DNA from: Bacteroidota bacterium
GTDB lineage: Bacteria; Bacteroidota; Rhodothermia; JANXDC01
Reading direction: 5' to 3'
Assembly: GCA_025059945.1 (NCBI GenBank)
Contig: JANXDC010000004.1
Location: 310,001 to 374,000 of the forward strand
DNA: 64,000 nucleotides
The notes beneath the pieces are model-generated. The model did no database searches and was not told where the DNA came from. It saw nothing but the letters and a program-made list of their open reading frames with translations. Shown here piece after piece: positions 9,113 to 17,120 of the stretch; the stretch's first letter is position 1; each line of letters begins with the position of its first letter. A program made the position numbers and the translations under genes.

Positions 9113-10411
9113 ATGCGAGCCGCAGCGGGGTGTGAGATGCGCACGGATCGGGAGGGTATTGTAGCGGAGTTCGAGGAGCCCACCACGACCGAACGCATAG
9201 AGCTCGCTAATGGCCTGCGCGTGCTGGTTGAGTTTGTGCCCGGCGTGCGCACCGCCTCCGTGGGCCTCTGGATCGAGACGGGTAGCCGCGATGAGCCAGA
9301 GCCTTGGCAGGGGATCTCCCATTTCCTGGAGCATGCCGTTTTCAAGGGCACGCGCAAGCGCCGCACACACCAGATCGCGCAATACTTGGAGTCTGTGGGC
9401 GGCTATGTAAACGCTTTCACCACGAAGGATCACACCTGCTTTTACGCTCGCCTCCTGGACGCACACCTGGAACGCGCCGTGGACCTGTTGGCGGACTTGG
9501 CCTTGCATCCGACGTTTCCGGAGCGCGAGGTGGCCAGGGAGCGCCAAGTTATCCTGGAGGAGATGCACCTCTACGAGGACACCCCCGATGAGCTTGCGCT
9601 CGATCTCTTTGATGAGGTGCTCTTCGAGGGACATCCGCTGGCCCATCCCATCGTAGGCAGACCGGATACGGTGAGCGCTCTGGGGCCAGAGGAGCTGCAC
9701 GCCTACAAGGCCCGCCAGTACCGGCCGGGACGCATGATCTTAACCTTTGCCGGCCCGTTCTGCCTCTCGAAGGTATTGCCTCTGGTGGAGCGCTACTTTG
9801 GGGAGGCGGACAATGCGGGGCCGGCTCCCCTCGAACGGCTTCCCGTAAACGGCTACAACCCTTATTGGCGAGAGCGCACCCGAGCCATCGGGCAGGCGCA
9901 TTTGGTCATGGGCACACGCGCCCCCGGTATGCGAGATGCCGAGCAACATGCGCTGGCCGTGCTCGCCGCGCTGCTGGGAGGCGGCATGAGTTCAATCTTG
10001 AACCAGCGCATCCGAGAACGCTATGGCTTCTGTTACGCCATCTACGCCTTCTATCACGGCTGGTCTGACGTGGGCCAATTCGGTATTTACGCCGGAGTAG
10101 AGGCGGCTAAGCTTGAGCGTCTGATAAAGCTCATCTGGCAGGAACTGGACCGGCTGCGTCAGGCGCCGCCCAAGGCGCGCCTGCTCGAGCAGGCCAAAGC
10201 CCAACTTAAAGGGTCGCTTTGGATGGGGCTAGAGGGCACGCAGGCCCGCATGATGCGTCTCGGCAAAGACGAGCTCTACTATCGACGCCCAGTTCCCTTA
10301 AGCGAGGTCCTGGCCGGTATCGAGGCCGTAACGCCCGAGGCGGTGCAACGGCTGGCGCAGGAGCTCTTTCGGGAAGAGCGCTTCTCGGGGGTTCTGCTCA
10401 AGCCCGAGTAG
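9113..10411 (+). CDS. M16-family zinc metallopeptidase (processing-peptidase type)
   Basis: A 432-residue single-copy M16B peptidase. The inverted zinc motif HFLEH is at residues 70-74, with the downstream Glu pair (E149/E150 in ILEEMH) that supplies the third ligand. The C-terminal half has the GGGMSSxLNQRIRERYGFCYAI signature. No signal peptide is visible, so it is probably cytoplasmic, like the M16 proteins that follow pnp in many genomes. ATG 9137 (MRTDREG) is an alternative start. It ends 9 bases before the convergent sigma54-type regulator. Confidence 0.9.
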   Translation: MRAAAGCEMRTDREGIVAEFEEPTTTERIELANGLRVLVEFVPGVRTASVGLWIETGSRDEPEPWQGISHFLEHAVFKGTRKRRTHQIAQYLESVGGYVNAFTTKDHTCFYARLLDAHLERAVDLLADLALHPTFPEREVARERQVILEEMHLYEDTPDELALDLFDEVLFEGHPLAHPIVGRPDTVSALGPEELHAYKARQYRPGRMILTFAGPFCLSKVLPLVERYFGEADNAGPAPLERLPVNGYNPYWRERTRAIGQAHLVMGTRAPGMRDAEQHALAVLAALLGGGMSSILNQRIRERYGFCYAIYAFYHGWSDVGQFGIYAGVEAAKLERLIKLIWQELDRLRQAPPKARLLEQAKAQLKGSLWMGLEGTQARMMRLGKDELYYRRPVPLSEVLAGIEAVTPEAVQRLAQELFREERFSGVLLKPE

Positions 10412-13845: not shown

Positions 13846-14463
13846 ATGGAGCCCATGGGCCATACCTCGTATACCGAGGTAGATCACGACAACAAGCTAG
13901 GGCTTACCGACCCGGAGGCGATTAACCGAGCTGAGTTAGAGGGGATCGCGCGCGCTCAGCACTTCTTGTTCTCCCTATCTCCGGAACACCCCATTACTGC
14001 GGAGCTCATCCGACGTATCCATTATGAAGCCTTCCATCATCTCTACCATTGGGCCGGTCAGTACCGGCGGGTCTCGGTCGTGGTGGGCGGTTTTGAGCCC
14101 CCGCCCCCGGCGCAAGTGCCTCTGCTTATGTATCAGCTGGAGAAAAATCTGGAGTTGCGCCTGCCTTATGCGGCCCGAGGGCTAAAGGAGCTTGTCGAGG
14201 TGATCGCAGAGATCCACCATCGGCTCACCTTTATTCACCCCTTCCGAAACGGGAACGGCCGCACCGCGCGTCTGGTCAGCGATCTGATCTCGCTTCGCTG
14301 TGGGGGTCCCCCCGTCGTATTATACGTCCGAGAGGGTGATTTGCGGCGCGCCTACATCGAGGCGCTCCGTCAAGCCGATCAAGGCCGCATGGAGGCCTTG
14401 CAAAGGCTTATCCGCGCCGCTATCGAACGGCAGGCGGATCGGTACCGGGAGCTGGTGGGATAG
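13846..14463 (+). CDS. Fic-domain protein with HPFRNGNGR active-site loop
   Basis: Fic enzymes usually transfer AMP from ATP to a target side chain. This 205-residue protein has the Fic core: YHWAGQYR, the substrate-flap region, and the active-site loop HPFRNGNGRTAR starting at H131. The position that normally holds the Mg2+-binding Asp or Glu is N135. I see no clear inhibitory (S/T)xxxE(G/N) helix in the protein and no adjacent antitoxin-like gene. A GAGGGGG ribosome binding site precedes the ATG. Family membership is secure; activity and target are unknown. Confidence 0.85.
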   Translation: MEPMGHTSYTEVDHDNKLGLTDPEAINRAELEGIARAQHFLFSLSPEHPITAELIRRIHYEAFHHLYHWAGQYRRVSVVVGGFEPPPPAQVPLLMYQLEKNLELRLPYAARGLKELVEVIAEIHHRLTFIHPFRNGNGRTARLVSDLISLRCGGPPVVLYVREGDLRRAYIEALRQADQGRMEALQRLIRAAIERQADRYRELVG

Positions 14464-14466
14464 GCT

Positions 14467-14688
14467 TTACGAGCAGGTCGCGGGGGTGGGGGCGGAGGTA
14501 AAGCGCCCCTCTGCGGCTCGGGCTTCCAGAAAGGTCTCCACCAAGGCTTCTACCTGCACGCGAGGCACGGTTTGCTCTTCGATGTACATCGTCACAAACC
14601 AGGCCTCCAGAAGCGCCTGGCGCAGATACGCGCGGTGCTGCAGGTAGGGGTTTGTGTCGTAAAGCGATATGCGGTTGCGGCTATCCAT
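14467..14688 (-). CDS. Small hypothetical protein downstream of mgtE
   Basis: This 73-residue ORF starts MDSRNRISLYDTNPYLQHR and continues with an amphipathic, Glu/Ala-rich helix (QALLEAWFVTMYIEEQ). I do not recognise a family. It is co-directional with mgtE, 76 bases downstream of it, and ends four bases from the convergent Fic gene. The frame extends upstream to a TTG at 14715. There is no convincing ribosome binding site, but the protein-like composition makes it more plausible than the antisense frames elsewhere. Confidence 0.42.
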   Translation of the reverse strand: MDSRNRISLYDTNPYLQHRAYLRQALLEAWFVTMYIEEQTVPRVQVEALVETFLEARAAEGRFTSAPTPATCS

Positions 14689-14764
14689 CGCAGTAAAGAT
14701 AGGGCCCTTGTGCAATCGGATGCCACCACAAAGACGGTGCCGCTATTTGCTTAACAGGAGACCA

Positions 14765-16135
14765 TTACAGACCAAAGAACCAAGAGGCCACGGTAAAGTA
14801 GATCACGATACCGGTCACGTCCACAAGCGTGGCCACGAAAGGCGCCGAAGAGGCGGCCGGATCGAAGCCCAGCCGACGCAAAACGAACGGCAACATGGAG
14901 CCGATCAGGGTGCCCCAGAGCACGATCCCGATCAAGGCCACCCCCACGGTGAAGGCAAGGGGTATCCACCGGGGTCCGTATAGATCAAACAAGAACTCCC
15001 ACGCGACAACCCGCAGAAATCCGATCGCCCCCAAAATAGAACCCAAGGACAAGCCGGATAGCAGCTCGCGTCGGATAACGCGCCACCAATCCCGCAGCGT
15101 GATCTCGCCTAGAGCCATAGCGCGAATGACGAGCGTGGCCGCCTGAGAGCCGCTATTGCCTCCGCTGGCGATCACCAAAGGCACAAAGAAAGCCAACAGC
15201 ACGACGCGCTCAATGGCGTGTTCGAAAACGGCCATAGCCGAGGCGGTAAACATTTCGCTGATAAAAAGCACAGATAGCCATCCGGCCCGCTTCTTAACCA
15301 TTTCCCCAAACGGGGTGGCCATGTAGGGGGTATCGAGCGCCTCCATACCCCCGAACTTTTGGATGTCCTCGGTGGCTTCTTCTACGGCTACATCCAGAAC
15401 GTCGTCTACGGTCACGATCCCCACGAGCACCCCTTCTTGATCGACCACCGGGAGCGCGGTGCGGTCGTATTCGCGCATGAGCGCAACGGCCTGCTCTTGG
15501 CTGTCCGTGGTGCGCAGGGCGACCGCCCGATAGTCCAGCAGGGACCGCACAAGGGTCTCAGGATCGGCCAGGATGAGTTTCTGCAGCGGGATCTCATCCA
15601 GCAGCTTCCACCCCTCGTCTACGACGTACACCGTGTTGATCGTCTCCGCCCGTCGGGCCATGCGTCGGATGTGGCGCAGCGCCTGATCCACGGTCCAATG
15701 GGGCCGTACGGCCACGTAGTCCGGGGTCATGAGTCGGCCGACGGAGCCCTCTGGATAGCCCAGCAGGCGCAGGGCTTCTTGGCGCTCTTCGGCCGAGAGC
15801 AGATTCAGCAGCCGTTGGGTGACCTGACCGGGCAGCTCCTCAAAAAGAGCTGTGCGATCGTCCGGGTCAAGCTCCTCCAGCAGGGTGCGGATCCGGTCGC
15901 TGGTCAGCTGCGCCAGCAGCTCCTGTTGTAGCTCTGAGCTTAAGTAGGCGAACACGTCCGCGGCTTGGGCGCGGGGCAGCAGCCGAAAGAGCACGATCCG
16001 CTCCTCCGGAGGTAAGGCTTCGACCAGACGCGCCACCTCCGGCGGCTCCCACTCGACCACGGTGTCTCGCACCTCGGCTAGCCGGCGCTGCTGCAACAAG
16101 AGTTGAATTTCGGGGCCCAGAAGCTCCCTTAGCAT
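14765..16135 (-). CDS. mgtE: Magnesium transporter MgtE
   Basis: MgtE is a Mg2+-gated channel in the inner membrane. The 456 residues comprise the N-terminal MgtE_N superhelical domain (repeated L-L-x-x-L-x-P-x-D/E-R units), two CBS domains (about 135-255) that bind Mg2+ in homologues, the plug helix, and a C-terminal pore of about five membrane helices including the conserved ASGGNSGSQAATLVIRAMALGE segment. A GAGGAGG ribosome binding site lies 8 bases upstream of the ATG. A 23-codon upstream ORF overlaps its start codon, and a structured leader precedes that; both suggest post-transcriptional control. Confidence 0.95.
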   Translation of the reverse strand: MLRELLGPEIQLLLQQRRLAEVRDTVVEWEPPEVARLVEALPPEERIVLFRLLPRAQAADVFAYLSSELQQELLAQLTSDRIRTLLEELDPDDRTALFEELPGQVTQRLLNLLSAEERQEALRLLGYPEGSVGRLMTPDYVAVRPHWTVDQALRHIRRMARRAETINTVYVVDEGWKLLDEIPLQKLILADPETLVRSLLDYRAVALRTTDSQEQAVALMREYDRTALPVVDQEGVLVGIVTVDDVLDVAVEEATEDIQKFGGMEALDTPYMATPFGEMVKKRAGWLSVLFISEMFTASAMAVFEHAIERVVLLAFFVPLVIASGGNSGSQAATLVIRAMALGEITLRDWWRVIRRELLSGLSLGSILGAIGFLRVVAWEFLFDLYGPRWIPLAFTVGVALIGIVLWGTLIGSMLPFVLRRLGFDPAASSAPFVATLVDVTGIVIYFTVASWFFGL

Positions 16136-16200
16136 GGACGTGTCCTCCTCGGGATCCGTTTGGACCCGGCATGCGGGTGGCGTACAAGAATCCGCGACAT
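16129..16200 (-). CDS. Leader-peptide ORF (23 codons) overlapping the mgtE start
   Basis: The ATG at 16200 is preceded by a perfect AGGAGG (16208-16213) with 7-base spacing. The peptide has 6 Arg, 3 Pro, 1 Lys and 2 His in 23 residues and ends SKRIPRRTRPC. Its TAA (16131-16129) overlaps the mgtE start region as ATGCTAA, so a ribosome finishing the leader would sit on the mgtE initiation site. This geometry suggests translational coupling or Mg2+/amino-acid-responsive control, as Pro/Arg-sensitive leaders do for Mg2+ transporters in enterobacteria. There is no sequence relation I can claim; function is inferred. Confidence 0.5.
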   Translation of the reverse strand: MSRILVRHPHAGSKRIPRRTRPC

Positions 16201-16447
16201 CTACAAGCCTCCTAGGGGCTAGAGAGGCGTGCTCGACAGCCCCCGGAGGCCCGAAAGGCTCAGGGCAAGATGGGCAGGGCTGTGCCGGGCACGCCTCGCA
16301 ACCGATCCGGTTGCGGTGCTGCAGCCTGAGGTCGATTACTGTCGGAGAAATCCATAAGCTTTGCGCGGCTCAGCTGCTTCGCCTAAGGCGGCCCAAGATA
16401 CGCAATGAGGGGGAGAAAAGAAAGCCTCCCGTCGGAGACGGGTGCGG
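16201..16447 (-). promoter_or_regulatory. Multi-helix leader region upstream of mgtE
   Basis: This gene-free stretch holds several complementary arms. A 9-bp stem joins 16224-16232 to 16289-16297 and encloses a 7-bp stem joining 16236-16242 to 16277-16283. An adjacent 8-bp hairpin lies at 16297-16315 with a 3-base loop. A GCAGC(C)TGAG / CTCAGCTGC stem spans about 16321-16371. Farther upstream is the terminator-like hairpin listed separately. I do not find the conserved bases of the M-box, cobalamin, TPP or yybP riboswitches, nor of SRP, RNase P or tmRNA. It may be a Mg2+-responsive leader of mgtE or an independent RNA. Confidence 0.45.
16411..16442 (-). terminator. Terminator-like hairpin within the mgtE leader region
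   Basis: Arms CCCGTC (16428-16433) and GACGGG (16437-16442) form a 6-bp stem with a 3-base loop. On the minus strand it is followed by AGGCTTTCTTTTCTCCC, a U-rich stretch. It would act on transcripts reading leftward toward mgtE, so it could attenuate a long mgtE leader or stop antisense transcription from efp. The stem is short, so strength is uncertain. Confidence 0.35.
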
Positions 16448-16480
16448 TTTGCGCCGAGCCAAAGCCTCGTCATATATTTA
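16448..16480 (+). promoter_or_regulatory. Candidate Bacteroidota-type promoter of efp-accBC
   Basis: TTTG at 16448-16451 is separated by 21 bases from TATATTTA at 16473-16480, close to the TTTG-N19-21-TAnnTTTG consensus of Bacteroidota primary sigma factor. It lies in an AT-rich patch of otherwise GC-rich DNA about 70 bases before the efp start, and no other promoter-like sequence is evident in this gap. Confidence 0.4.
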
Positions 16481-16550
16481 GTTTGACCCGTGTGCTGAAG
16501 GCGCCGGGCGTTTTTTGTACCTGTCCTGTATCAAGTCGGTGCTGTTGCGT

Positions 16551-17120
16551 ATGGCCACCACCGCTGATTTTCGTAATGGCATGACCCTGGTCCTGGACGG
16601 GGAGCTGTACACTATCGTGGAATTTATGCACGTCAAACCCGGCAAGGGGGGGGCCTTTGTGCGCACCACGCTGAAGCACGTCAAAACGGGCCGAGTCGTG
16701 GATCGCACTTTTCGGGCCGGGGAACGCGTGGAGACGGCTCGGGTCGAACGGCGGCCCCATCAGTTCCTCTACGAAGACGACCTGGGGCTGCATTTTATGA
16801 ACTTGGAAAGCTACGAGCAGATCGTGGTGCCTGCTGAGCTGGTTCAAGGACGGGAGTTTTTAAAGGAAGGGGGGATGGCCGAGGTGCTCGTGCACGCGGA
16901 AACCGAGACTCCGGTCCTGGTGGAACTGCCCGTGCACGTGGAGCTCAAGGTCGTCGAGACGGACCCCGGCGTGCGGGGCGATACGGCCACGGGCGGCACC
17001 AAGCCGGCTCGGCTGGAGTCCGGAGCCGTAGTGCAGGTGCCGCTCTTTGTTGAGGTGGGCGATGTGATTCGCGTAAACACGGAGACGCGGACCTACATCG
17101 AGCGCGTGCGTCAGAGCTAG
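16551..17120 (+). CDS. efp: Elongation factor P
   Basis: EF-P relieves ribosome stalling at consecutive prolines. The 189 residues give three OB-like domains; the loop V-K-P-G-K-G-G-A-F places K32 at the tip that enters the peptidyl-transferase centre, so this is the lysine type. Whether it is modified cannot be told here. The end D-x-I-R-V-N-T-E-T-R-T-Y-I-E-R is the family C-terminus. The open frame runs upstream to 16515, but MATTADFRNGM at 16551 matches the family start. It heads an operon with accB (18 bases away) and accC. Confidence 0.95.
   Translation: MATTADFRNGMTLVLDGELYTIVEFMHVKPGKGGAFVRTTLKHVKTGRVVDRTFRAGERVETARVERRPHQFLYEDDLGLHFMNLESYEQIVVPAELVQGREFLKEGGMAEVLVHAETETPVLVELPVHVELKVVETDPGVRGDTATGGTKPARLESGAVVQVPLFVEVGDVIRVNTETRTYIERVRQS

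Follow-up and report, generated by a model that had tools for sequence, protein, structure and literature searches.

The locus described here raises the question of whether a short open reading frame (ORF) that ends on the start codon of mgtE, the gene of a Mg2+ transporter, governs the translation of that gene, and by which of its elements. It lies in a window of 64,000 nucleotides from a Bacteroidota bacterium of the class Rhodothermia. The original prediction held that an ATG with AGGAGG 7 nt upstream opens 23 codons whose stop overlaps the mgtE start as ATGCTAA, that translation of this leader is coupled to or competes with initiation at mgtE, and that its Arg and Pro codons sense Mg2+ through ribosome stability. 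On direct reading the ATG, the AGGAGG and its spacing, the codon count and the overlap are all exact: the leader runs on the minus strand from ATG at 16200-16198 to TAA at 16131-16129, and the ATG of mgtE occupies 16135-16133 (Table 1). The leader peptide, MSRILVRHPHAGSKRIPRRTRPC, consists of 23 sense codons, of which 6 are Arg and 3 are Pro. The gene that follows is a genuine, ordinary mgtE, as indicated by the Pfam domains of its product and by its solved relatives, the best of which is the full-length MgtE structure 2yvx; its start position agrees with the starts of its homologues. Downstream of mgtE the same strand carries an 82-aa ORF with no Pfam match (14467..14715, -), and a Fic/DOC family protein is encoded convergently with the mgtE 3' end (13846..14463, +).

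Table 1. Positions of the features discussed, numbered as in the window. SD, Shine-Dalgarno motif; G001, sister genome.
Feature	Position	Strand	Basis
mgtE, 456-aa Mg2+ channel/transporter	14765..16135	-	domains MgtE_N, CBS, MgtE
Leader ORF (uORF2), 23 codons, stop over the mgtE ATG as ATGCTAA	16129..16200	-	sequence read directly; G001
SD of the leader ORF, AGGAGG, 7 nt from the leader ATG	16208..16213	-	G001: GGAGG, 6 nt
SD of mgtE itself, GAGGAGG, within the leader ORF, 8 nt from the mgtE ATG	16144..16150	-	G001: GGAGG, 9 nt
Predicted hairpin, 3' arm contains the leader SD	16204..16253	-	predicted fold and SD-opening energies; G001 counterpart
uORF1, candidate second upstream ORF, 31 codons MDFSDSNRPQAAAPQPDRLRGVPGTALPILP, no SD	16260..16355	-	G001 ORF at equal offset
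Conserved block GGCTTTCTTTT...TATCTTGGGCCGCCTTAG, probable mgtE promoter region	16387..16427	-	conservation and position only

Two genomes are available for the order to which the window belongs, that of the window itself (G000) and KatS3mg041 (AP024675.1; G001), and the tests applied to this pair were picked once the data had been seen. The MgtE proteins of the two genomes are 86% identical. The G001 gene is likewise preceded by a leader ORF, with its ATG at -65, its stop ending at +7, 23 codons (MPRLVIALPAPANGFLSGGIRPC) and GGAGG 6 nt before the ATG. Judged from the sequence, in both genomes the leader thus has the layout of a coupled upstream ORF, with an SD of its own and a stop over the downstream start; the identical geometry in the sister genome argues that the leader ORF is real and is positioned for translational coupling to mgtE, as had been proposed.

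That an SD should matter in this lineage is not a matter of course. SDs are reported to be generally absent from the Bacteroidota, Rhodothermus marinus included (PMC3155529), and Bacteroidia ribosomes are described as not recognising them (PMC9976891). Among 102 unambiguous starts of G000 and G001, chosen without an SD-based criterion, an SD motif is found at about 45%, versus 14% at a control position; because of this enrichment, SDs are expected to matter in this Rhodothermus-like lineage, unlike in Bacteroidia.

How much weight the shared geometry can bear depends on the divergence of the two genomes. Nucleotide identity is 40% for the leader DNA and 48% for the fourfold sites of mgtE, with about 28% expected by chance, so that neutral sequence is close to saturation. 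When neutral divergence is simulated at 45-50% identity, about 0.1% of runs retain all three of ATG, GGAGG and open frame, and 4-6% retain the ATG and open frame; the former figure should not carry weight alone, because the hairpin described below may also preserve the SD. An empirical control is provided by 172 orthologous starts scanned in 286 kb of G000 and 400 kb of G001. Short ORFs preceded by an SD and lying over the start occur at 6/172 genes in G000 and at 10/172 in G001, and only 2/172 have identical ends in both genomes: mgtE and a conserved small membrane-peptide gene. At L141 (about 9676-9786, +), a conserved 36-codon gene with a GTG start and GGAGG overlaps the start of the gene downstream in both genomes; it weakly resembles MaAIMP_sms, below the Pfam cut-off. 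The leader stop depends in both genomes on CTA as the second codon of mgtE, a codon that accounts for 8% of Leu codons in G000 and 2.8% in G001 (15% and 8.5%, respectively, among early codons); a stop at the same position is seen in 2/172 genes of G000 and 4/172 of G001.

Within the leader, identity at codon positions 1, 2 and 3 is 7/21, 13/21 and 5/20 (P = 0.012-0.014), an order that would be expected of weakly constrained coding DNA read in the leader frame, not in the mgtE frame; for leader and uORF1 combined the signature has P = 0.001. The N-termini share the similarity R-[IL]-[LV]-[VI] (P = 0.005). Over the whole peptide the BLOSUM similarity is 0.11 per residue in the leader's own frame versus 0.26 in the mgtE frame, and since it is no better in the former, the peptide sequence appears to be at most weakly constrained. 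We also considered an upstream extension of the mgtE frame, which is open to -237 in G000 and to -261 in G001, but in G000 this stretch contains no start codon, and the nucleotide class of highest identity in the leader would be the third codon position; this extension was rejected.

Outside the order, the nearest mgtE genes, 64-66% identical, belong to a genus (g3) presumed to be Rhodothermus, as a 63% identical gene (L033) comes from a Rhodothermus MAG. The leader arrangement is absent from Rhodothermus and from the other mgtE loci fetched, most of which have no SD at mgtE. A blastn search with the 5' UTR against 245 genomes of the class gave a good match only to the window's own genome, G001 being too diverged to match and three matches of 33-34 nt being at noise level; no mgtE was found in viral contigs.

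These data bear on the possibility that the leader is a chance frame in a GC-rich 5' UTR, kept by the kinship of the two genomes and with an SD maintained by other constraints. The absence of the leader outside the order, a peptide that is not clearly conserved, and some 3 other genes with non-SD upstream ORFs of matching ends are all compatible with this view. We nevertheless consider it rather unlikely, because with fourfold sites near saturation (48%) the ATG, SD, frame, length and stop are all preserved, and so are a codon-position signature with P of about 0.01 and a rare CTA.

The proposal that the Arg and Pro codons sense Mg2+ fares worse. The excess of Arg over composition is mild (P = 0.03), that of Arg and Pro together is not significant (P = 0.075), and Arg richness is not conserved, with 6 residues in MSRILVRHPHAGSKRIPRRTRPC versus 2 in MPRLVIALPAPANGFLSGGIRPC. 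Neither peptide contains an acidic residue (D/E) or adjacent prolines. In MgtL the ribosome-destabilising motif is EPDP, whose acidic residues are required (PMC11282234); an N-terminal acidic/proline motif of this type was looked for in both leader peptides and is not present. A peptide that itself senses Mg2+ by ribosome instability would suit a position before a Mg2+ transporter gene, and scattered prolines do occur in both peptides; the unequal Arg counts, the want of acidic residues and of Pro-Pro, and an Arg/Pro content mostly explained by GC content make it extremely improbable. What the two genomes have in common is the layout, which suggests translational control of mgtE rather than an Arg/Pro Mg2+ sensor.

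A better candidate for the control point than the Arg/Pro codons is a structure that the original prediction overlooked. In both genomes the leader SD is predicted to sit in a stable hairpin, with a folding energy at 37 °C of -32.4 kcal/mol in the window and of -29.4 kcal/mol for its G001 counterpart. At 65 °C, a temperature that is relevant because G001 is presumably derived from a hot-spring metagenome, judging by the name of the KatS3mg series, the values are -16.8 and -15.8 kcal/mol, respectively. The calculated cost of opening the leader SD at 37 °C is 10.4 kcal/mol in G000 and 12.2 kcal/mol in G001, to be compared with medians of 4.2 and 3.4 kcal/mol for the SDs of other genes; the leader SD ranks 1-2 among 65 for occlusion in G000 and 1 among 58 in G001, and at 65 °C no other SD is as occluded in either genome. 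By the same measure the SD of mgtE itself, at 5.1 and 7.0 kcal/mol, is ordinary to moderately occluded. Comparison of the two hairpins reveals no double compensatory change, two sequences being uninformative on covariation, and for the 201-nt region as a whole the predicted fold is no more stable than those of shuffled sequences (z = -0.31 and -1.36). The conservation of the 5' arm, where a block is identical at 15/16 positions, was dropped as evidence, as blocks of 15-16/16 are common in other upstream regions. In the minimum-energy fold of G001, uORF1 alternatively pairs over a long range with the loop of the hairpin; we do not claim this pairing, whose version in the window was drawn by eye only and lies in a different register.

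These elements can be assembled into a single scheme, in which the leader ORF is translated, coupled to mgtE and gated by the hairpin, and to which we give about even chances as one joint reading. The mgtE transcript would bear a short leader ORF that is translated. Because the leader stop overlaps the mgtE start, ribosomes terminating on the leader would find themselves on the SD and AUG of mgtE and could re-initiate there, with a coupling that is presumably positive. Translational coupling by re-initiation is an established mechanism, and in our model a ribosome placed at the leader stop raises the accessibility of the mgtE SD from 0.19-0.31 to 0.72-0.75. Since the strong leader SD is locked in the hairpin, translation of the leader is the likely control point: whatever opens the hairpin would gate the leader, and with it much of the translation of mgtE. 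Candidate signals that may act on the hairpin are Mg2+, ribosomes on uORF1, temperature or a protein. The exact leader peptide would be of little importance, what is kept being its position, SD, stop and hairpin. Against this scheme stands the strong SD that mgtE has of its own, whose ordinary to moderate accessibility means that coupling may be dispensable for mgtE.

The same layout can be read in another way, with a leader that is translated and coupled but constitutive, and that helps ribosomes onto the moderately structured start of mgtE in a GC-rich mRNA, with no regulation involved. Both the opening cost of the mgtE SD and its exposure by a modelled ribosome at the leader stop agree with this idea, as does the identical leader geometry in both genomes. 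A helper ORF, however, should have an open SD, and in either genome few if any of about 60 SDs are more occluded than that of the leader; constitutive help is thus an explanation to which we assign a minor share of the probability.

If the scheme of a hairpin-gated, coupled leader holds, the gate could be operated from the region upstream. A second ORF, uORF1, starts at -220 in both genomes, with 31 codons in the window (MDFSDSNRPQAAAPQPDRLRGVPGTALPILP) and 30 codons in G001 (MELADSSRRTPAPKARSRIRGCRSAPSPLP); in the window it ends 6 nt from the hairpin. A one-gap alignment of the two peptides scores 41, versus -0.7 +/- 8.3 for shuffled sequences, and is above all 2000 shuffles. Identity by codon position is 12/30, 18/30 and 10/30 (P = 0.03), and the peptides start as MDFSDS and MELADS, acidic at positions 2 and 5, and have PxLP-type ends. 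Because uORF1 lacks an SD, and because upstream ORFs without SD whose ends match turn up also at about 3 of some 90 further genes, these similarities are suggestive only, and we regard uORF1 as a lead rather than a finding. It could be an MgtL-like sensor, in which drop-off at the acidic start under low Mg2+, or pausing at the Pro-rich end, refolds the hairpin and so switches the leader and mgtE. Modelled ribosomes in the middle of uORF1 tighten the hairpin over the leader SD, whose unpaired probability at 37 °C falls from 0.07 to 0.000 and from 0.13 to 0.005 in the two genomes, which, like the shared start, similar length, acidic positions and ends, speaks for such a sensor. Set against this are the non-SD coincidences just mentioned and the chance that a motif at the DNA or RNA level accounts for the nucleotide identity; the similarity is also 0.7 per residue in the mgtE frame, versus 1.1 in the uORF1 frame. 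We hold a sensor of this type to be quite unlikely. The fuller version is a two-uORF attenuator, in which uORF1, with its acidic start and Pro end, would sense Mg2+ or the state of the ribosome and switch the hairpin on the SD of a leader that is coupled to mgtE; it is a long shot. An observation that may be added here is that efp, encoding elongation factor P, a factor that rescues stalling at Pro, is the divergent neighbour of mgtE in both genomes of the genus (16551..17120, +, in the window, where mgtE runs on the minus strand from 16135) and was not found at the remaining fetched mgtE loci; its place beside Pro-containing leader ORFs is curious and could be coincidence.

Alternatively, the hairpin may be the expression platform of an undescribed riboswitch, for Mg2+ or another ligand, with an aptamer between -220 and -118. 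A hairpin that sequesters an SD is a standard translational platform, and precedents exist in the M-box and uORF of M. tuberculosis (PMC12810186) and in the mgtE-motif candidate of Thioalkalivibrio (PMC11109978). An Rfam scan of 15900-16700, however, yields no match up to E = 10, M-box RF00380 included (nor does the whole window at gathering score), upstream identity is low and the fold stability is not significant, so that we see only a slim chance for a riboswitch. Both the riboswitch and the uORF1 sensor would be special cases of gating, overlapping with the joint reading of a hairpin-gated leader. Farther upstream, the conserved block of Table 1, probably the mgtE promoter region, gives no match to the sigma-70 consensus. 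A terminator-like match at 16442-16424 was set aside, as the stretch is missing from G001 and lies upstream of the inferred promoter.

Leader ORFs that control Mg2+ uptake are known from mgtA, mgtCBR and corA of enterobacteria and from the Mbox leaders of mycobacteria; our literature search found no report that mgtE is controlled in this way in this region of the tree. Among described systems, the pe20 leader of M. tuberculosis (Mbox - uORF1 - uORF2 Rv1805A) comes closest to the present locus; there, pairing between SD and anti-SD lets the M-box control a small uORF (PMC12810186). The two are alike in preceding an operon related to Mg2+ transport and in having two upstream ORFs, with the SD of the second sequestered and a small ORF gated, but the pe20 leader has an Mbox aptamer and Rho termination, whereas the leader in the window matches no Rfam family and its stop overlaps the mgtE start. 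MgtL of enterobacterial mgtA is likewise a short ORF that precedes a Mg2+ transporter gene within its 5' leader (PMC11282234); it acts on Rho-dependent transcription termination via EPDP, whereas the leader considered here has no EPDP or acidic residue and overlaps the transporter start. The mgtE motif of Thioalkalivibrio, an uncharacterised riboswitch candidate (PMC11109978), is similarly a structured RNA before mgtE that includes an SD, but its P4 stem holds the main gene's own SD and AUG, while in the window the hidden SD is that of the upstream ORF and the lineage is unrelated.

Overlapping cistrons coupled in translation are a general mechanism, and the leader shares with them a start/stop overlap within a few bases and the placement of the second cistron's SD within the first; unlike in the general case, the first cistron here is a poorly conserved 23-codon peptide, predicted to be gated by a hairpin. 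From its sequence the leader appears to behave as a gated, coupled leader ORF, one that falls outside the MgtL and M-box families. Should Mg2+ prove to act on the hairpin, gating of a small ORF before a Mg2+ transporter would have evolved more than once without an M-box aptamer; the two-uORF attenuator, if true, would be the counterpart, of independent origin and with no aptamer, of mgtL and the Mbox-uORF systems in a Rhodothermus-like lineage where SDs are used. Whether control depends on SDs in a branch near the Bacteroidia could also be clearly tested on this leader. A different element is present at the Rhodothermus mgtE loci (L004-L008 and L033), where the conserved motif GGAAACTT-N13-GTACTTTG lies about 35-65 bases before the ATG. 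It is absent in the window's lineage; each of the three genomes that match it exactly has a single copy, at mgtE, and it is possibly a dedicated promoter or operator.
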